A stretch of 44,782 bases of DNA, from the NCBI GenBank assembly GCA_020860755.1, contig JAJBTQ010000017.1:1-44782 (forward strand), written 5' to 3'. The position numbers and the translations under genes were made by a program. Below the pieces are notes generated by a model that did no database searches, was not told where the DNA came from, and saw nothing but the letters and a program-made list of their open reading frames with translations. Source of the stretch: Lachnospiraceae bacterium (GTDB taxonomy: Bacteria; Bacillota; Clostridia; Lachnospirales; Lachnospiraceae). Positions 5,268-44,666 of the stretch are shown piece by piece; position 1 is the stretch's first letter, and every line of letters starts with the position of its first letter.

Positions 5268-6554
5268 TCATTCATAATACTCGAATGTTAACCCGCATAC
5301 ATTGACGGTATCTCCCTCCACCATGCCGAGTCCTTTCAACTCATCTAAGATGCCCTGATCTTCAAGAAAATGCTGAAAGAATAAAAAGCCTTTCTCGGAC
5401 TCGAGATTCGTATAGCCCAACATCCTCTCGATCCGGGGCCCCTCGACCAGGTATTCCTTCTCCGCTTCATCATAGGAAACGGTGTAGGGTTCGTCTTTAA
5501 AGACTTCCGTTTCCGGGAAAAACTCCTGTTCAAAAACGATCGGATCATCTTCGATGGACGAAAGCAGATTCCACACGGCGTTTAACAATTTTTTGACACC
5601 CTTTCCGGTCACTGCGGAGATCGGATATACCAAAACGCCCTGCGGTTCAAACTCTTCCCTGATCCGTTTGACGGGGTCTGCGTCACCCGCATAGATCAGA
5701 TCGGTCTTGTTTGCCGCGATGATCTGCGGCTTTTTGGATAGATCCGAGCCGTATGCTGCAAGCTCCTTATTGATCGCGTAGATATCTTCGATCGGATCTC
5801 TTCCCTCCGAAGAAGCGGCATCTACAAGATGGACGATCACCTTGGTGCGCTCGATGTGGCGCAGAAATTCATGACCGAGGCCGACGCCTTCGGATGCACC
5901 TTCTATGAGGCCCGGGATATCTGCCATGACAAATCCCCTTCCCTCGTCCAGATCGACAACGCCCAGATTAGGATTGAGAGTTGTAAAGTGATAGTTTGCG
6001 ATCTTTGGCTGTGCATTTGTGACACGTGCAAGCAGCGTGGACTTTCCGACATTGGGAAAGCCGACCAGGCCGACATCGGCGATCACTTTAAGCTCCAGGA
6101 TCACATCGACCTCTATGGGGTCTCCTCCGGGCTGGGCATATTTAGGCGCCTGCATGGTCGGGGTGGCATAGTGCTGATTTCCTTTTCCCCCTCTTCCGCC
6201 GTGCAGGATCACCTCTCTTGTTTTTTCACCGGACATGTCCGCGGTCACTTTGTCGGATTCGGCCTCACGGATCACGGTTCCGGGCGGTACCTGAAGCACG
6301 AGAGCCGCTCCGTTTTTGCCGTGACAGTTATTTTTCCCTCCGGGCTCTCCGGGCTCAGCAGCAAACTTTCTCCTGTGGCGGAAATCGGTAAGCGTATTTA
6401 ACCCTTCGTTTATCTCAAAGATCACATCGCCGCCTTTTCCGCCGTCTCCGCCGTCCGGACCTCCTGCCGGGACATATTTTTCCCGGTGGAAGCTGACATG
6501 CCCGTCTCCGCCTTTGCCGGACTTAATAATAATTCTCGCTCTGTCTGCAAACAT
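5268..6554 (-). CDS. obgE: Obg GTPase involved in 50S subunit assembly
   Basis: The 428-residue protein has the three Obg domains. The first is the glycine-rich Obg fold (1-158, with GGPDGGDGGKGGDV and RGGKGN). The second is a G domain: G1 GFPNVGKS at 165-172, G3 DIPG near 212, and the NKTD guanine-specificity motif. The third is a C-terminal OCT domain (about 345-428). Obg GTPases help late 50S maturation and respond to ppGpp. It follows rpmA. Its ATG has an AGGTG ribosome-binding site. Confidence 0.97.
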   Translation of the reverse strand: MFADRARIIIKSGKGGDGHVSFHREKYVPAGGPDGGDGGKGGDVIFEINEGLNTLTDFRHRRKFAAEPGEPGGKNNCHGKNGAALVLQVPPGTVIREAESDKVTADMSGEKTREVILHGGRGGKGNQHYATPTMQAPKYAQPGGDPIEVDVILELKVIADVGLVGFPNVGKSTLLARVTNAQPKIANYHFTTLNPNLGVVDLDEGRGFVMADIPGLIEGASEGVGLGHEFLRHIERTKVIVHLVDAASSEGRDPIEDIYAINKELAAYGSDLSKKPQIIAANKTDLIYAGDADPVKRIREEFEPQGVLVYPISAVTGKGVKKLLNAVWNLLSSIEDDPIVFEQEFFPETEVFKDEPYTVSYDEAEKEYLVEGPRIERMLGYTNLESEKGFLFFQHFLEDQGILDELKGLGMVEGDTVNVCGLTFEYYE

Positions 6555-11636: not shown

Positions 11637-13745
11637 TTATCGTAAATTTACCTCAATCCCGACCGGTCTGGTACCGGTCAGCCCCATGCTCCTCCTGTCG
11701 GGTTGAGAGATGCCGGCATAGAGAATAAAATGATCCCCGTCATGTAATCGCCTGCCTTCCTCATCTACAACTGTCATAGCCTGATTTGAGATGACGATAT
11801 CAATGGTTCTGCTCTCTCCCGCCTCAAGAAAAATTCTTTTAAATCCGCAGAGACTGTAATTGTCCACGGCAAGCGGACTGTCCAAATTCCGGATATACAC
11901 TTCCACTACCTCGTCTGTATCTGTATCCCCGAAGTTTTTAACGGTAACGGAGAGACTCAGGTCGGAATCCACGGCAGGATCATTTTGAAGGGCTGCATCA
12001 GTGACTTCGCATTTTCCGTAGGTCAGCCCGTAACCGAAAGGATAGAGGGCATCTTCTGTCATATAACGATAAGTGCGGCCTTTCATTGAATAATCGGTAA
12101 ATTCCGGAAGAGAATCAATATTGCGGTAAAACGTTACAGGAAGCTTTCCGGCGGGGGAAATATGGCCAAACAAAACGTCCGCAACTGCTCTTCCTCCGCG
12201 GGCACCGGGGTACCAGGATAAAAGGATAGCGTCCGCATGATCTTCGGCTTGTGACAGATCGATCGCGCTGCCTGCCATCAGGACGATGACAAGCGGCTTT
12301 CCCGTACCGATCAGAGTCTGTAAAAGGATACGCTGCGGCTCCGGGAGCAGCAGATCCGCCTTGTCCCCGCTGCCAACGCCGTTGCTTAGACCCATCTCCT
12401 CTCCCTCGAGCGTTTCATCGAGGCCGAGTACAAGGATCGTGATATCGCTGTGAGTGGCAACTGTTATTGCTTCCGAGAGCCGGTCACATTCACAGGCAAG
12501 ACCTTCACTCCGGTCTTTATACAGATGACAGCCCTCGGAATAAAGGATGCGTACATCCTCTCCTGCAGCATCATGAATGCCTTCCAGAACAGTGATGTAG
12601 CGGGAGGATGTTCCGTAATAATTGCCTTGCAACGGGATCCGGCTATTTGCATTGGGGCCGATCACACCGATGGTTTTCAACTCTTTTTTATTCAGTGGAA
12701 GGATGCCATTGTTTTTAAGAAGAACCTGACTTTTCCTGGCCGCATTGATCGCCAGGTCCACATGTTCTTTACACTCCACAGTCTCGTAGGGGATCTCGTC
12801 ATATTCGCAGGGATCGAACATACCGAGAAGAAAACGGGTTGTAAAGAGCCTTTCGCAGGATTCCTTCACAAAGGATGCATCGATTAATTTCTTTTGTATT
12901 CCTTCCATGATGCTTTGATAGGTGCAGCCGCAATTACAGTCACAGCCTGCCTCGAGTGCCATCTTAGCCGATTCCTGCGGGCCGTTTGTCACCATGTGGT
13001 GCTCATGAAAGTCTCGGATTGCCCAGCAGTCCGAGACGACATGGCCTTTAAAGCCCCATTCTCCGCGCAGGATATCACGCAGGAGTGTGTTGCTTCCGCA
13101 GCACGGCTCTCCGTTCACACGATTGTAGGCTCCCATTACAGCCTCAACATCTGCCTCCTTCACCAATGCTTCAAAAGCTGGAAGATAGGTCTCATAGAGA
13201 TCCTTTTTTGAAACGACCGCATCAAATTCGTGGCGGAGCGCTTCGGGTCCGCTGTGGACTGCAAAGTGCTTGGCGCATGCGGCAACCCGCAGATGATCAC
13301 CTTTTCCCTGAAGGCCCTTTACAAAACGAACGCCCAGTCTGGCTGTCAGATATGGGTCTTCGCCGTAAGTCTCCTGCCCTCTCCCCCAGCGGGGATCGCG
13401 GAAGATATTGATATTGGGGGACCAAAAAGTCAAGCCCTTGTATATATCTCTGTCATCCAGGGCTGAGCTGGCATTATATTTCGCTCTGGCCTCTATGGAG
13501 ATCGCTTCGCCGATCTGCTCCATCGCATCCTCATCAAACATCGCAGCCATGGCGATCGCCTGAGGAAATACGGTTGCAGTGCCTGCGCGAGCAACTCCGT
13601 GCAGTGCTTCGTTCCACCAGGTATATGCCGGAATATTCAGCCTCGGGATAGCCGGCGCGTCAAAGCGCAGTTGAGAAGCCTGTTCGGCGGTTGTCATTTG
13701 TTCCACAAGAGCGTGAGCTTTGTTGCTTGCTTCCTGTCTGGTCAT
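11637..13745 (-). CDS. Glycoside hydrolase family 3 (probable beta-xylosidase or beta-glucosidase)
   Basis: The 702-residue GH3 enzyme has the (beta/alpha)8 domain with NEALHGVARAG, FWSPNINIFRDPRWGRGQETYGEDP and KHFAVHSGPE. The nucleophile Asp239 is in VVSDCWA. An alpha/beta sandwich domain (ITILVLGLDETLEGEEMGLS) and a C-terminal fibronectin-III-like domain (VEVYIRNLDSPLAVDNYSLCGFKRI) follow. There is no signal peptide, so it acts on imported oligosaccharides. The close resemblance to xylosidase-type GH3 motifs (WNEALHG) and the neighbouring xylulokinase favour xylo-oligosaccharides as substrate. This remains inference. It is the last gene of the pentose operon, 3 bp after the dehydrogenase. 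Confidence 0.9.
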   Translation of the reverse strand: MTRQEASNKAHALVEQMTTAEQASQLRFDAPAIPRLNIPAYTWWNEALHGVARAGTATVFPQAIAMAAMFDEDAMEQIGEAISIEARAKYNASSALDDRDIYKGLTFWSPNINIFRDPRWGRGQETYGEDPYLTARLGVRFVKGLQGKGDHLRVAACAKHFAVHSGPEALRHEFDAVVSKKDLYETYLPAFEALVKEADVEAVMGAYNRVNGEPCCGSNTLLRDILRGEWGFKGHVVSDCWAIRDFHEHHMVTNGPQESAKMALEAGCDCNCGCTYQSIMEGIQKKLIDASFVKESCERLFTTRFLLGMFDPCEYDEIPYETVECKEHVDLAINAARKSQVLLKNNGILPLNKKELKTIGVIGPNANSRIPLQGNYYGTSSRYITVLEGIHDAAGEDVRILYSEGCHLYKDRSEGLACECDRLSEAITVATHSDITILVLGLDETLEGEEMGLSNGVGSGDKADLLLPEPQRILLQTLIGTGKPLVIVLMAGSAIDLSQAEDHADAILLSWYPGARGGRAVADVLFGHISPAGKLPVTFYRNIDSLPEFTDYSMKGRTYRYMTEDALYPFGYGLTYGKCEVTDAALQNDPAVDSDLSLSVTVKNFGDTDTDEVVEVYIRNLDSPLAVDNYSLCGFKRIFLEAGESRTIDIVISNQAMTVVDEEGRRLHDGDHFILYAGISQPDRRSMGLTGTRPVGIEVNLR

Positions 13746-18949: not shown

Positions 18950-19768
18950 CTACTCTTCTGCCGGTTCTTGGGCAACTGCCTCTTCCTGCATGCCCTCTTC
19001 CGGGTAAGTCTCATCATCAAACTCGTCCGGTACGGCGTAGTTGCCAAGCTCATCGTAGTTGTCCTGCTCGGAATCCTCTTCCACAAGTCCCTGTTTTGCC
19101 TCAATGACCGCATCGGCCATAGTGGAAACGATCAGCTTTACCGCGCGAATCGCATCGTCGTTGCCCGGGATCACATAATCGAGCTCTTCGGGGTCACAGT
19201 TGGTATCCGCGATACCAATCAGCGGGATGCCGAGAATATGCGCTTCAAGGACGCAGTTCCGCTCTTTTTTGGGGTCTACGACAAAGATCGCGTCCGGCAG
19301 ACGGTTCATTTCGCGAACGCCTCCGAGATTGCGAAGCAGTTTGTCTTTCTCTTTGCGCAGGGAGATCACTTCTTTTTTGGGAAGCACATCGAACGTGCCG
19401 TCTTCCTCCATCTGTTCCAGCTCTTTTAAGCGGTCCACACGGCTCCGGATAGTCTTGAAATTCGTCAGCATGCCGCCGAGCCATCTCTCGTTCACGTAGT
19501 ACATTCCGCAGCGCTCCGCCTCGGTTTGGACAGAATCCTGCGCCTGTTTCTTGGTTCCGACAAAAAGAATGGTACCACCTTCAGATACGATCTGAGAGAC
19601 CGCATCGTAGGCCTCATCGATCTTCACGACCGATTTCTGCAGGTCGATGATGTAGATCCCGTTCCGCTCCGTGTAGATATAGGGAGCCATTTTCGGGTTC
19701 CATCTTCTCGTCTGATGCCCAAAATGGACGCCTGCCTCCAACAGTTGTTTCATTGAAATTACACTCAT
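18950..19768 (-). CDS. rpsB: Ribosomal protein S2
   Basis: The 272-residue S2 carries [27 protein letters not shown] and FVGTKKQAQ, both hallmarks. The last about 45 residues are an acidic tail ([21 protein letters not shown] and on to EPAEE) beyond the usual S2 end. The start at 19768 has GGAGGA upstream. An ATG at 19783 lies inside that site and is not used. A strong promoter and a structured leader precede it. Confidence 0.97.
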
Positions 19769-19797
19769 ATCAGTTTCCTCCATGGTTAAATTCTTCC

Positions 19798-19987: not shown

Positions 19988-20749
19988 TCAGTCGAGTTCA
20001 TCAAAGACGGCATCGTTTAAAACTTTGATATAGGTCCCCTTCATCCCGGAGGATCTGGACTCGATCACGCCGGCGCTTTCAAACTTGCGAAGAGCGTTTA
20101 CGATCACGGAGCGGGTGATCCCATATCAGTCGGCGATCTTGCTGGCGACAAGGATTCCTTCGTTTCCATCCAGCTCATCAAATATATGGCGGATCGCATC
20201 TGTCTCGGAATAGGAAAGTGTCCCGAACGCTGATTTGACAACCTGTATCTTGCGGGACTCCTCCTGGTTCTCTTCATTGACGGAGCGCATCATTTCCAGG
20301 CCGACAACGGTTGAACCATATTCACAGAGAATGATGTCATCGATATCATAGGCGTCATCCTGTCGATAGACAAATAGTGTGCCCAGTCTTTCACCGGCTA
20401 TGTCGATCGGTGCGATCGTCACATGATAGCTGTGTGAATCGTTCCTCTCAAAACCAAGCGTCTCAAGATTTACATTTTCTTTCGTAGAGAGGATGCTTAA
20501 AAGTCTCTCATTTAAATTGTTATCTATGAAACCGCCGACCTGTTCGATCAGAAGTTCATCGATGACGTCAATATCCTTTGCATCGGAAACTCCGAGCACC
20601 TTTCCCTTTTTGCTGAGTACCAGAACATTTGAACAGAGGATCTCCGTCATAACGGCACAGATATCATTAAAGACAACCTTTGATGAATTGTTGTTGTGCA
20701 GTAATTTTCCGATTTTTCTGGTCTTGTCTAATAACTGAACGCTGCTCAT
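19988..20749 (-). pseudogene. codY: codY, interrupted by an in-frame TGA in the DNA-binding helix
   Basis: CodY is the global nutrient repressor that senses branched-chain amino acids and GTP. The first 207 codons encode the GAF domain and linker (MSSVQLLDKTRKIGKLL, then GILVASKIAD). Codon 208 is TGA (20128-20126). The same frame then continues with [38 protein letters not shown] to a stop at 19988-19990. Those 45 codons are the recognition helix and wing of CodY, perfectly conserved. The TGA replaces the arginine normally found in KIADR-GITRS. A truncated product would keep the sensor but lose DNA binding. The gene starts at 20749 with GGAGGG, immediately after topA. A sequencing error, a real nonsense mutation or readthrough cannot be told apart here. 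Confidence 0.9.
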
Positions 20750-20750
20750 A

Positions 20751-22841
20751 TCATCCCTCCGATGCATCTTTTATGCGTTCCGCAGCTATTTCCTCCACAT
20801 GGCCGCAGTTCGGATCTGCGCAAACCAGCTTATTTCCTCTTTCGACCATATATCCTCCACATTCAGGGCAGGGTTTGGAGGAAGGTTTTTGCCATGACAT
20901 AAAGTCACAGTTTGGATTGTCCTCACAGCCGTAATATTTTCTGCCTTTCCGCGTCTTTTTGAGCACGATATCTTTTCCACACTTGGGACAGGACACGCCG
21001 ATCTTTTCTAAGAGCGGCTTTGTGTTTCTGCACTCCGGGAAGCCGGGACAGGCAAGGAACCGGCCGTGCGGGCCGTATTTCACGACCATATTGCGTCCGC
21101 AAAGCTCACAGATCTCGTCTGAAACTTCATCGCGGATCTCAACCTTTTCAAGATTCTGTTCCGCAGCTTTTACCGCTTCATCCAGATCGGGATAGAAGTT
21201 TCGGACAACCATTTTCCAGTCGATCGTCCCATCTTCCACATCGTCAAGCAGGGATTCCATATTTGCCGTAAACTGTTCGTCTACAATCTCGGAAAACTCT
21301 TCTTTCATGATCCGGTTTACGACCTCTCCAAGCTCAGAGACATAGAGGTTTTTGTTCTCTTTGATCACATATCTCCGGCTGATCAGCGTCGTAATGGTCG
21401 GCGCGTATGTGCTGGGACGTCCGATCCCGAGCTCTTCCATCGTTTTTACCAGGGTCGCCTCCGTAAAATGCGGCGGAGGCTGGGTAAAGTGCTGGTCTGC
21501 CGTGAGATCCTGTTTCTCAAGGACGGCACCTTTCTCAAGATTTTTTGAAAGAGCCTTGTCTGATTTTTTCTCATCTAAGGAATATACGGACATGAATCCG
21601 TCAAAGACCACTCTGGATGAAGACAGATTGAAGCGATATTTCCCGGCGCTGATCTTAACGGAAGTCGTCTCATAGACTGCCGCCGTCATGCGGCTCGCCA
21701 CAAAGCGGTTCCAGATTATTTGATATAGCCGGTACTGATCACGTGTCAGAGAATCCTTCACCTTTGCCGGCGTATAGCGGATGTCTGTCGGACGGATCGC
21801 TTCGTGTGCATCCTGGATCCTTGCGTCGGAACTTCCGGCTGCAGTCTGATGAGCGGTATAGGCTTCTCCGTATACCTCTTCGATATACGCTGTGGCTGCA
21901 GTGACGGCCTCTTCGGAGACTCTCGTAGAATCCGTACGAAGATAAGTGATGAGGCCTACCGATCCGCTCCCTTTGATGTTGACGCCTTCATAGAGCTGCT
22001 GCGCCAAGCGCATTGTCTTTTGTGTTGAAAAATTAAGATGACGACTGGCTTCCTGTTGAAGTGTGCTCGTACTGAACGGAAGCGGCGGTTTTTTCGTGCG
22101 CTCGTTCTTTTTTATGTCGAGTACCTTATATTCTGCCCCCTCAAGAGCAGCCAGGATCTCGTCCAACTGATCTTTGTTTGTGATCTGGATTTTGCCCTTG
22201 CTGTCACCGCAAAACGATGCAATGATCGGTTTTTTTGCTCCTTCAGGCAGAAGATGTGCGTCAAGAGTCCAGTATTCTTCCGGAATAAATGCCGCGATCT
22301 CATCCTCACGGTCACAGATAATGCGAAGAGCCGCGGACTGCACACGACCGGCGCTTAAGCCTCTCTTTACCTTGGCCCAGAGCAGCGGACTGATCCGGTA
22401 TCCGACCATACGGTCTAAGATCCTCCTGGTCTGCTGGGCGTCGACGAGATCCATGTTGATCTCTCGCGGGTGCTTTAAAGATTCCTTCACTGCACTCTTT
22501 GTGATCTCATTGAACGTGATGCGCTTAACATTCTTTTCGTCCAGATTGAGAGCCTGGGAAAGATGCCACGAGATCGCCTCTCCCTCGCGGTCCGGATCGG
22601 TCGCGAGATAGATTTTATCCGCTTTTTTTACTTCTTTTCTGAGATTGGCAAGAATGTCGCCTTTGCCGCGAATGGTAATGTATTTCGGCTCGAAATCGTT
22701 CTCTACATCGATGCCCAATGTGCTCTTCGGAAGATCCCTTACGTGACCGTTTGAGGCAGTCACTTCATAGTTTTTACCAAGAAATTTTTTGATGGTCTTG
22801 ACCTTTGCCGGAGACTCAACGATCACTAAATTCTTTGCCAT
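20751..22841 (-). CDS. topA: DNA topoisomerase I
   Basis: The 696-residue type IA enzyme relaxes negative supercoils. It has a Toprim domain with TDPDREGE at 81-88 and the active-site Tyr300 in GLITYLRTDSTRVS. Three C-terminal zinc-ribbon cysteine sets follow (CELCGRN...CPGFPEC, CPKCGKD...CEDNPNC, CPECGGY...CADPNC). The length is typical of Firmicutes TopA. The ATG at 22841 has AAAGGAT upstream. codY starts immediately after its stop. Confidence 0.97.
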   Translation of the reverse strand: MAKNLVIVESPAKVKTIKKFLGKNYEVTASNGHVRDLPKSTLGIDVENDFEPKYITIRGKGDILANLRKEVKKADKIYLATDPDREGEAISWHLSQALNLDEKNVKRITFNEITKSAVKESLKHPREINMDLVDAQQTRRILDRMVGYRISPLLWAKVKRGLSAGRVQSAALRIICDREDEIAAFIPEEYWTLDAHLLPEGAKKPIIASFCGDSKGKIQITNKDQLDEILAALEGAEYKVLDIKKNERTKKPPLPFSTSTLQQEASRHLNFSTQKTMRLAQQLYEGVNIKGSGSVGLITYLRTDSTRVSEEAVTAATAYIEEVYGEAYTAHQTAAGSSDARIQDAHEAIRPTDIRYTPAKVKDSLTRDQYRLYQIIWNRFVASRMTAAVYETTSVKISAGKYRFNLSSSRVVFDGFMSVYSLDEKKSDKALSKNLEKGAVLEKQDLTADQHFTQPPPHFTEATLVKTMEELGIGRPSTYAPTITTLISRRYVIKENKNLYVSELGEVVNRIMKEEFSEIVDEQFTANMESLLDDVEDGTIDWKMVVRNFYPDLDEAVKAAEQNLEKVEIRDEVSDEICELCGRNMVVKYGPHGRFLACPGFPECRNTKPLLEKIGVSCPKCGKDIVLKKTRKGRKYYGCEDNPNCDFMSWQKPSSKPCPECGGYMVERGNKLVCADPNCGHVEEIAAERIKDASEG

Positions 22842-41642: not shown

Positions 41643-42470
41643 TCAGGAACTTCGTTCCTTTTTGACTTTTGTGGCCGAATAAAGCAGCCATACGCCAAGG
41701 AACGTCCCACCAAATGCAACTACGTACAAAAAGACTTCATAAAAAAGCGGACTTATTGCACCCAAACCATTATTTATATAAGTTAAGAGCACATTACTGG
41801 TGAAATTGATCGTCATATGACATGGGATGGAATAGCGGATCCCGGGCCCTTTTAGACAGAGATAGCCGAGGAAAAGTCCAATTACGAAAGCATAAATTCC
41901 CTGAGTCAGATTCCAGTGGTATATTCCGAATAAGGCAGCCTGGAAAATGAGGGCAAGCCAGACAGGAAATACTTTGCGCGCATATCCAAAGACAAGGCCG
42001 CGGAAGATGATTTCCTCAATCACAGGTCCCAGGATCACTGCATATAACATTGTCAGCCATACGATGCCGGACAGTGCTTCATTTAAGTTAGAGTTATTAG
42101 AAACAAACTGATTTGGCATGATACGATACAAAACAATCATAACCACATCAGAGAGATATATCAGTGAGAACGCAAGGACAAATATAGAAATGATCTTGCG
42201 GGGCGTCCTCTTCGGAAGACTGCTGTCCGTCTCGGCGTTTTTCGGCGGAAATACAACGGATCTTCGAAACCAGATGAGACCGAAGAGAATGGCAAGCACA
42301 CCCAAAACAATAACATGTATCCATATATTCAAATTGGTAGAGTCCATGGTTCCCGGCAGAACTCCCCTTGATCTGAGAGATGATATGACGAGACCAATTA
42401 ATCGTACTGAAACCATTTCAATCGCAACTGGAATAATACTGAACAGAAAATATTTCCATTTTTGTTTCAT
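41643..42470 (-). CDS. CPBP-family intramembrane metalloprotease (Abi)
   Basis: The 275-residue membrane protein has about eight hydrophobic segments. The CPBP catalytic motifs are VIEEIIFRGLVFGY (EExxxR) with FGIYHWN (HxxxN/B) and later SIPCHMTINFTSN. These are Rce1-like glutamate proteases of the membrane. In bacteria they are linked to bacteriocin immunity or to protein processing, and the job here is unknown. The ATG has AAGGAGG upstream, 38 bp after the BspA-like gene. Its 3' end forms an AGGAAC/GTTCCT hairpin across the stop. Confidence 0.85.
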   Translation of the reverse strand: MKQKWKYFLFSIIPVAIEMVSVRLIGLVISSLRSRGVLPGTMDSTNLNIWIHVIVLGVLAILFGLIWFRRSVVFPPKNAETDSSLPKRTPRKIISIFVLAFSLIYLSDVVMIVLYRIMPNQFVSNNSNLNEALSGIVWLTMLYAVILGPVIEEIIFRGLVFGYARKVFPVWLALIFQAALFGIYHWNLTQGIYAFVIGLFLGYLCLKGPGIRYSIPCHMTINFTSNVLLTYINNGLGAISPLFYEVFLYVVAFGGTFLGVWLLYSATKVKKERSS

Positions 42471-42509
42471 AATCTAACCCTCCTTTTAAATTCTGCAGTG
42501 TTTCATTCC

Positions 42510-44666
42510 TTATTTCCGAACAGTACGTCTGCGAACGCCAAGGCTTACAACCACAGCCCCGGCCGCAATGATCACGAGAAGATACCACACCCCCGCATTG
42601 GTGTCTCCCGTCTTCGTAGATCCCGTGCCGCTTGTGCCTCCCGTGCCGCTGATACCGCTGCCGCCTTTATCGCCGGTGCTGCCCGGGCTTTCGGTATTGC
42701 CCGAATTGCCGCCTGTCCCCGTGCCGCTTGTACCGGAATCGGTTTTGTCCTTGATCGTGACCGTGATCTCGTCACTGTCTTCTGCAGTAAACGAACCATA
42801 TGTCGCGGTTACAACGCATTTGTAGGTTCCGGAATCGGATACCTCGCTTCCGGTAGTAAACTGGCTGGATGTCGCTCCTTCGATCATAGTATCTCTGCCA
42901 TCCTCTACTTTGTACCACTGATAGGAAATCTCCGCCGTGTCAGGCGTGACGTTTGCGGTCACGGTCAGGGTGATCCCGGAACCGTCATAGGTCTTGGTTT
43001 CAGCGGAAGCTGTGATCTTTACATCGCTGACTGTAGGAAGCACCTCCTGCGTATAAGTCCAGTACTGCCCGGACTCGGTCACATCCTGCAGATAATCTTC
43101 CGATACGACGCTCCCGTTTTCCGGGCTGTCATACCAGATCTGCTGATCCACTACCTGCGCTTTTGTAAAAATGTCGGTTTCCTCACCGATCCCAACCCAT
43201 TCGAGGGCCGTACAACCGTTCGCAAAATCCTGGTAAGATCTTAAATTGCGGGTATCCCAGCCGCTTAAGTCGAGAGAGGTAAGTTGTTCACAATCCAAAA
43301 ACATTTCCTTCATCCACTGCACGTTTGAAGTGTCCCAGTCTGATACGTTGACGCTTTCCAGACTTATGCAGCTTTCAAACATTCTCTCCATGTCATTCCC
43401 ATTTGAAACGTCCCAGTTCGATAAGTCCAGGCTTTTTAAGCTTTCACAGTATTCAAACACGCCACACATCCCTGTTACATTCGAAGTGTCCCAGCCTGAC
43501 ACGTCCAGGCTTTCCAGACTGATACAATCACAAAACAGGAAGTCCATAGTTTTCACGTTGGAAGTATCCCAGCCCGAAACATTCACGCTTTCCAATCCTT
43601 CACATGAATTAAACATATTATCTATTTCAAGCAGGTTGGAGGTATCCCAGTTCGACAGATCCATACTTGTAAGACTTATACAAGCTGCAAACATGTTGCT
43701 CATACTTGTAACGCCTGAAACATCCCAGTCTGATATGTCTAAGTTGGTCAAGCTGAGACAATAATAAAACATATATCCCATCAATGTAACGTTTGAGGTA
43801 TTCCAGTTTGAGACATCTATGCTTTCCAGATCCATACAATAGTTAAATAAGTCCCTCATATATACAACGGACGAGGTATCCCAGGAGGACACATCCAGAT
43901 CTGTCAGGCTGTAACAATCAGAAAACATATAACCCATATCTGTAACGTTTGAAGTATCCCAATCTGACACGTCCACGCTCGTAATCTCGGTACATTCTGC
44001 AAACATGTAACTCATATCCGTAACGGCAGAAGTATCCATATTTTCAAACCCGTAAAATGCATCTCCGGAAAAGCCGTAAAACCAATTAGCCAGGCTTATG
44101 GGCTGTGCCTCATGAAATGAGGGATCGATCACCACGTCGGGCACGTTCGCTCTAACATTGCGCCACGGCACGTCTGTGTATGACACGGCAAGGCTGTCCA
44201 CATCCTCGTACACATACGTTACAGCTTTATCGTTATATTCACTCCCCTCTTCCGGGGCAGTTTGATCCGTATAAAATGTCAGACTATTGTCCGTATCGCT
44301 GTAGACGGCAAACGCTTCCAGCCCATCGGCCAAGAGCATGATCTCGTCCTCATCCGTTTCGGAAATCTCCGCGTCGTCCAGATCAGAGACCTCTTCGTCG
44401 CCCGTTTCGGGATCTTCGGCGTCGTCCGATGCAGGGATTTCTGAGTCCTTCACGGGACTCTCGGCGTTGTCTGATACCGGGATTTCTGAGACGTCCGTTT
44501 CGGAAAACTCCGCGTCGTCTAAATCGGAGATCTCTTCGTCGCTTGTTTCAGAGATCTCCGCGTTATTATCTATTTCTGCTGCCAGTGCAGTTACTCCGCC
44601 AAGGCTCATCACCATTCCTGCCGACAGGACACAGGTAAGCACTCTTCTCAAAATGTTTTTATGCAT
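42510..44666 (-). CDS. BspA-like leucine-rich repeat surface protein with C-terminal anchor
   Basis: The 718-residue protein starts with a signal peptide (MHKNILRRVLTCVLSAGMVMSL, cleavage about TALAA). An acidic Asp/Glu/Ser linker follows, with a duplicated SDLDDAEFSETD/SDLDDAEISETD unit. About ten 25-residue BspA-type repeats (DUF285; e.g. MFSDCYSLTDLDVSSWDTSSV) cover roughly residues 195-470. An Ig-like domain (VSDVKITASAETKTYDGSG) and a Gly/Ser/Thr-rich stalk come next. The protein ends KTGDTN, a hydrophobic helix and RRRTVRK. This resembles LPxTG anchoring but lacks LP before KTG. It is exported and probably exposed on the cell wall for adhesion. It lies upstream of the CPBP gene, probably cotranscribed. 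Confidence 0.9.
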   Translation of the reverse strand: MHKNILRRVLTCVLSAGMVMSLGGVTALAAEIDNNAEISETSDEEISDLDDAEFSETDVSEIPVSDNAESPVKDSEIPASDDAEDPETGDEEVSDLDDAEISETDEDEIMLLADGLEAFAVYSDTDNSLTFYTDQTAPEEGSEYNDKAVTYVYEDVDSLAVSYTDVPWRNVRANVPDVVIDPSFHEAQPISLANWFYGFSGDAFYGFENMDTSAVTDMSYMFAECTEITSVDVSDWDTSNVTDMGYMFSDCYSLTDLDVSSWDTSSVVYMRDLFNYCMDLESIDVSNWNTSNVTLMGYMFYYCLSLTNLDISDWDVSGVTSMSNMFAACISLTSMDLSNWDTSNLLEIDNMFNSCEGLESVNVSGWDTSNVKTMDFLFCDCISLESLDVSGWDTSNVTGMCGVFEYCESLKSLDLSNWDVSNGNDMERMFESCISLESVNVSDWDTSNVQWMKEMFLDCEQLTSLDLSGWDTRNLRSYQDFANGCTALEWVGIGEETDIFTKAQVVDQQIWYDSPENGSVVSEDYLQDVTESGQYWTYTQEVLPTVSDVKITASAETKTYDGSGITLTVTANVTPDTAEISYQWYKVEDGRDTMIEGATSSQFTTGSEVSDSGTYKCVVTATYGSFTAEDSDEITVTIKDKTDSGTSGTGTGGNSGNTESPGSTGDKGGSGISGTGGTSGTGSTKTGDTNAGVWYLLVIIAAGAVVVSLGVRRRTVRK

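Follow-up and report, generated by a model that had tools for sequence, protein, structure and literature searches.

An in-frame stop codon ahead of the recognition helix of CodY in a Lachnospiraceae draft genome: assembly error or recent gene breakage

In the draft genome of a Lachnospiraceae-type bacterium, the assembled codY gene contains an in-frame TGA ahead of the part that encodes the recognition helix and wing of its DNA-binding domain. The stop is really present in the assembled sequence. Judged by comparison with relatives, the gene shows no decay, and only two neighbouring codons are anomalous, the stop itself and the codon that follows it. We conclude that the stop is either an assembly error or a recent and ordinary breakage of the gene, with no new reading of the genetic code. 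Both explanations are ordinary, and we give a consensus error a slight edge over a real, recent loss-of-function allele.

The source genome comprises 1,722,061 bases in 36 contigs and is 79% complete, with a contamination of 0.01. The window, by which we mean the whole stretch of 44,782 nucleotides that was analysed, is contig C4 (1-44782) of this assembly (G000). By CodY, the nearest named relatives are assemblies that bear the label Clostridiales or Lachnospiraceae. The gene is an ordinary codY, the only one detected in the whole draft genome at its 79% completeness, in a Lachnospiraceae-type species known from a draft genome. It is flanked by topA and rpsB, names that we gave to the neighbouring open reading frames from their sequences, and which we take to encode DNA topoisomerase I and ribosomal protein S2, respectively (Table 1). 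Elsewhere in the window we observed two tandem Clostridiales-1 RNAs (RF01699; 29823-29956 and 30007-30172, minus strand) between a fabG-like gene and fabF, as well as a surface protein with PARCEL repeats (42510-44666, minus strand; ten repeat matches to TIGR02167).

Table 1 Features of the codY region (window coordinates) and the other genes of this assembly judged to be interrupted
Feature	Position	Strand	Basis
codY 5' part, 207 codons: GAF sensor, linker helix, winged-helix start to KIAD	20129..20749	-	PF06018 and phmmer
In-frame TGA in codY, at the Arg position of relatives	20126..20128	-	Sequence, alignment; screen for interrupted genes with by-eye judgement
TAT (Tyr) codon, where Val predominates in relatives	20123..20125	-	Alignment; part of the local anomaly
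codY tail, 45 codons, undegraded: recognition helix and wing	19991..20125	-	Match to solved CodY
codY terminal stop, also TGA	19988..19990	-	Sequence
topA (presumed DNA topoisomerase I), upstream of codY, intact, TGA-ended	20751..22841	-	Sequence
rpsB (presumed ribosomal protein S2), downstream neighbour of codY, intact	18950..19783	-	Sequence
MBOAT acyltransferase, in-frame TGA	G000:C8 about 257-259 (L148)		Both halves match MBOAT, 22.7 and 16 bits, below the cut-off of 27
Nitrogenase-component-like oxidoreductase, in-frame TGA	G000:C11 about 13163-13165 (L151)		Pfam family match in first half only
TetR-type regulator, in-frame TAA	G000:C17 about 11761-11763 (L166)		Halves match TetR_N and, weakly, TetR_C_41

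Read on the minus strand, the site runs ...ATC GCC GAC TGA TAT GGG ATC ACC CGC TCC GTG..., with the TGA at 20128-20126, and this direct reading confirms the position and frame given in the initial annotation. The most probable start codon is the ATG at 20749-20747, which has GGAGG just upstream and leaves 207 codons before the stop; the listed open reading frame (213 aa) begins 18 bases earlier, within the end of topA. Past the internal TGA the frame remains open for 45 codons (20125-19991) and closes at the TGA at 19990-19988, so that the earlier description of 207 codons, a TGA and then 45 in-frame codons to a normal stop holds. When the 213-aa frame was compared with Pfam at E 0.001, the sole match was the CodY GAF domain (PF06018, E 8.6e-36, residues 11-182), and a phmmer comparison of the 5' part with solved CodY chains reached E 2.2e-38 to 5lnh. 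HTH_CodY (PF08222) was not found by Pfam at E 0.001 in the product up to the stop; it matched only when the search read through the stop, with "1 TGA" inside the match (E 1.1e-30). The tail alone matched eight distinct solved CodY sequences (E 7.1e-17 to 5ey2, residues 2-44). Its identity to relatives was 88.6-100% over 43-44 residues in every row with a tail match (L051 and L069 had none), in line with the earlier remark that the flanking sequence is undegraded.

The TGA had been said to replace the arginine of KIADR, and relatives agree: among 106 distinct sequences that fit the motif used for counting (G018, L051 and L069 did not fit it and were excluded), 100 have Arg where the stop falls, three have Ser and three have Lys. 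The next residue is Val in 103 of the 106, Ile in two and Gln in one, and in the window it is Tyr (TAT). In the 14 genus relatives compared, the pair is either Arg-Val or Arg-Ile; here it is stop-Tyr. At least five of the six bases of the codon pair differ from each of these 14 members, with the stop differing by at least two bases, and the codon after it by at least three, from every codon found in the genus. Differences from genus members at the flanking codons of the same 72-codon stretch are mostly synonymous. Even with a free choice among all Arg codons for the first position and all Val and Ile codons for the second, a minimum of three base changes is needed. The proposal that a single base change (CGA or AGA to TGA) explains the site therefore fails, because the neighbouring codon is abnormal too.

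The rest of the protein looks normal. We aligned 98 CodY sequences (six loci were skipped by the pattern, and loci from L113 on were omitted except L123) and found that the window CodY deviates at one of the 134 sites whose conservation in the other 97 is 95% or more, namely the Tyr after the stop; the stop site itself falls below this threshold and so lies outside the 134. Within the genus, it deviates at two of 135 otherwise invariant sites, compared with 0 to 3 in other members and 27 in G018. The codY of G018 (L123) is strongly diverged, with its 27 deviations counted over 160 sites that are invariant in the other aligned genus sequences. Divergent relatives can be altered at both of the positions that are odd here, with Ala-Ala in G018, a fifteenth genus relative, and Ser-Gln in L019, which means that the Tyr could predate the stop, as an older tolerated change followed by a later single event. 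We also considered whether the odd six bases had been copied from another place in the window. Matches that contain them reach 10 bases at most, and 33 of 100 shuffled windows did as well or better, so we rejected a templated origin.

The gene is widely kept among relatives. HTH_CodY was found in 15 of the 19 other genus genomes, and comparison of codY in these relatives gave 15 of 15 without a stop; the TGA is not one that all relatives share. In the family, HTH_CodY was present in 355 of 397 genomes, with no stops among the matches listed; a TAG that had been flagged as internal in the CodY of G033 is its terminal stop. Four genus genomes (G002, G012, G013 and G015) yielded no codY. In the last three, the TopA query gave weak matches only (24-26% identity in the best rows), to topoisomerase paralogues, and in G002 the topA match stops where the fetched DNA ends. 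Since the topA neighbourhood is lacking or truncated as well, the four absences look like assembly gaps, and repeated loss of codY in the genus is not supported.

We wondered how common interrupted genes are in this and related assemblies, and screened for consecutive same-frame coding segments split by one stop, a design that covers in-frame stops and leaves frameshifts aside. In 596 kb of this genome the screen returned 83 candidates, most of them neighbouring genes when inspected by eye. Four were judged to be interrupted: codY and the three further genes in Table 1. A fifth, LysR-like, was ambiguous. None of the four stops judged real in these 596 kb lies in a housekeeping gene. In 227 kb of genus relatives the same screen gave 45 candidates and one clear case, the accD of G007 (L133, about 6197-6199), which carries an in-frame TAG with both halves matching accD. 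The topA of G002 (L118) likewise has an in-frame TAG, at a position where all other topA sequences printed there have Tyr; nine codons before it, a Thr present in every other printed topA has become Pro. Topoisomerase I and acetyl-CoA carboxylase are generally required for growth. The stops in G002 topA and G007 accD therefore look like consensus errors, which they probably are. Consensus errors of this class appear to exist in sister assemblies, which are more fragmented than the present one: the two sisters with broken housekeeping genes have about 430 and 160 contigs, compared with 36 here.

These observations bear directly on codY. The likeliest origin of its stop, at about an even chance, is a local error in the assembly consensus, with full-length CodY in the living strain. 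A wrong or minor-variant patch of reads could have produced both the stop and the odd codon next to it, as one small anomaly. In favour of a consensus error, the two odd codons lie side by side, constraint elsewhere in the gene is unrelaxed, codY is widely retained, and housekeeping genes are broken in the sisters. Here we infer two things, that the topA and accD stops of the sisters are errors and that the codY site is of the same sort. Published work on RefSeq assemblies and their reads reports that many putative pseudogenes in genome assemblies stem from assembly errors (PMC11017572). The spurious internal-stop pseudogenes of that report resemble our case in having a single stop in an otherwise intact gene, as do the sisters with housekeeping stops; they differ from it in having been studied together with their reads, and in that the odd patch here spans two codons (PMC11017572). 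Against a consensus error we count that this assembly is cleaner than those of G002 and G007, that its four interrupted genes are of losable kinds, as real pseudogenization would give, and that the Tyr could be the older of the two changes. The initial annotation had listed a base-call error as one option among several; that option stands, and the sister topA and accD stops make consensus error at least as likely as the others.

What would be lost if the stop were real can be read from solved structures. CodY of B. subtilis (5loj) and of S. aureus (5ey0; both species as given in PMC10415144) share with our sequence the GAF sensor, the linker, the start of the winged helix and the tail past the stop. 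In contrast to both, the predicted product here stops short of the recognition helix and wing. The residues described as contacting DNA in S. aureus CodY include Ala203 and Ser204, where helix H7 begins, Thr213, Ser215, Val216, Val218 and Arg222 of the recognition helix, and Leu235-Met237 of the wing (PMC10415144). By alignment, the stop is equivalent to S. aureus residue 209, in a numbering that we deduced from the residues named in that report, and the last residue of the product corresponds to Asp208. The product would thus retain the GAF sensor together with the linker helix and the Ala-Ser contact and would be without the recognition helix and wing. The earlier statement that a real stop removes the DNA-binding element is upheld to this extent.

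Such a product would fit a real, recent loss-of-function allele, with no binding to CodY boxes and with derepression of amino acid and nutrient genes, as would follow from established CodY biology; we place this reading a little short of even. The stop in frame with a clean tail is what a recent mutation should look like, and most of the contacts to DNA that are described in S. aureus CodY lie in the part removed (PMC10415144). Evolution of S. aureus under pyocyanin is reported to yield loss-of-function mutations in codY, some of which also occur in the genomes of clinical isolates (PMC11918324). In the account given there, those genes were likewise inactivated by small mutations, including some in the DNA-binding domain, but they come from sequenced and phenotyped isolates, whereas we have one draft assembly of a Lachnospiraceae-type bacterium (PMC11918324). 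A real allele is further favoured by the clean assembly (36 contigs, contamination 0.01) and by the dispensable kinds of genes that are interrupted in it. It is disfavoured by the wide retention of single-copy codY, by the absence of relaxed constraint elsewhere in the gene and by the two-codon patch, which is unusual for a point mutation.

Worn operators might also betray a real loss. The CodY family binds operators of the AATTTTCWGAAAATT type in response to branched-chain amino acids and GTP; what we have on this trait is counts of box-like sites, compared with 104 letter-permuted controls, and the signal is mixed. At three or fewer mismatches, 596 kb of this genome held 47 box-like sites, a count reached by none of the 104 controls, and 227 kb of genus relatives held 28, reached by six. 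At two or fewer mismatches, there were three sites here (reached by 19 of 104 controls) and 10 in the relatives (reached by one of 104), in a sample that repeats the codY region from several genomes. Twenty-four of the 47 sites lie outside long open reading frames. One site with two mismatches is located 155 bases upstream of a putative glutamate synthase gene, a name that we assigned from its sequence. The 47 sites at up to three mismatches count for a consensus error, as they exceed all permuted controls. At face value, the three sites at up to two mismatches, not above controls here, against the relatives' 10, above controls, fit worn-down operators and real loss. With the two thresholds pointing in different directions (47 and three sites), the survival of CodY boxes does not decide as a clock of loss.

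We next turn to the genetic code. Readthrough or recoding of the codY UGA would yield full-length CodY from the sequence as assembled, and in its favour the tail is conserved and in frame, and two other genes of the genome also have an in-frame TGA in our screen. We consider it highly improbable, and recoding of UGA at codY is very unlikely. The 446 long open reading frames in the 596 kb sampled end in TAA (203), TGA (153) or TAG (80), or run off an end (10). UGA thus terminates 153 of the 436 with a stop, and also codY itself and topA, in agreement with the earlier argument that a recoded UGA is unlikely where other genes stop with TGA. The genome has prfB, the gene for RF2. A search of the whole draft genome gave no tRNA-Sec at or above the family cut-off, and the seven sub-threshold places hold ordinary tRNAs according to ARAGORN. 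Across the window and 32 sampled stretches, ARAGORN listed no UCA anticodon, and it assigned CCA to the Trp tRNA. We therefore rejected UGA recoding, selenocysteine and a suppressor tRNA. The three TGA sites also differ in the residue found in relatives, which is Arg for codY, Gly for the nitrogenase-like gene (nine of nine genus relatives) and Phe for the MBOAT gene (in the three distant MBOATs, out of nine loci, that fit the pattern), and the fourth interrupted gene carries TAA. Finally, the base after the codY UGA is U, which has been associated with less readthrough in the data reported in PMC5289835.

While locating prfB (L161, G000:C36 about 42257-43297; genus prfB loci lie among L203-L222), we observed that its programmed-frameshift site (AGGGATTCACTT-stop-C) has UAA in place of the usual UGA in seven of 19 genus genomes (G000, G004, G005, G013, G015, G017 and G018) and UGA in the other 12, with G019 left out of the count. 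Since RF1 also reads UAA, the autoregulation of RF2 may be altered at the UAA-type sites.

A truncated CodY could in principle have a role of its own. The sensor-only fragment might be a maintained product that, for example, pairs with or titrates proteins or ligands. Its GAF part has no excess of unusual changes, and the GAF lobe is described as forming about 67% of the interface in the DNA-bound CodY dimer (PMC10415144). With one codY found in an assembly that is 79% complete, however, there is no full-length partner for it to pair with, and all 15 other genus members with HTH_CodY lack the truncation; we regard this role as scarcely credible. The broader case, in which the stop is real and fixed in the species, so that a conserved CodY fragment that senses ligands and dimerizes works without DNA in a lineage lacking the usual nutrient repressor, is hardly more than a long shot.

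Taken together, the observation made in the initial annotation stands and its interpretation stands in part, with the single-base-change account set aside. An error at the codY stop would serve as a warning against reading lone in-frame stops in draft genomes as biology without reads, even where the regulator is well conserved. A real stop would provide a natural codY null in an uncultured member of the Lachnospiraceae, useful for asking what role CodY plays there, but loss of codY is already known from other Firmicutes.
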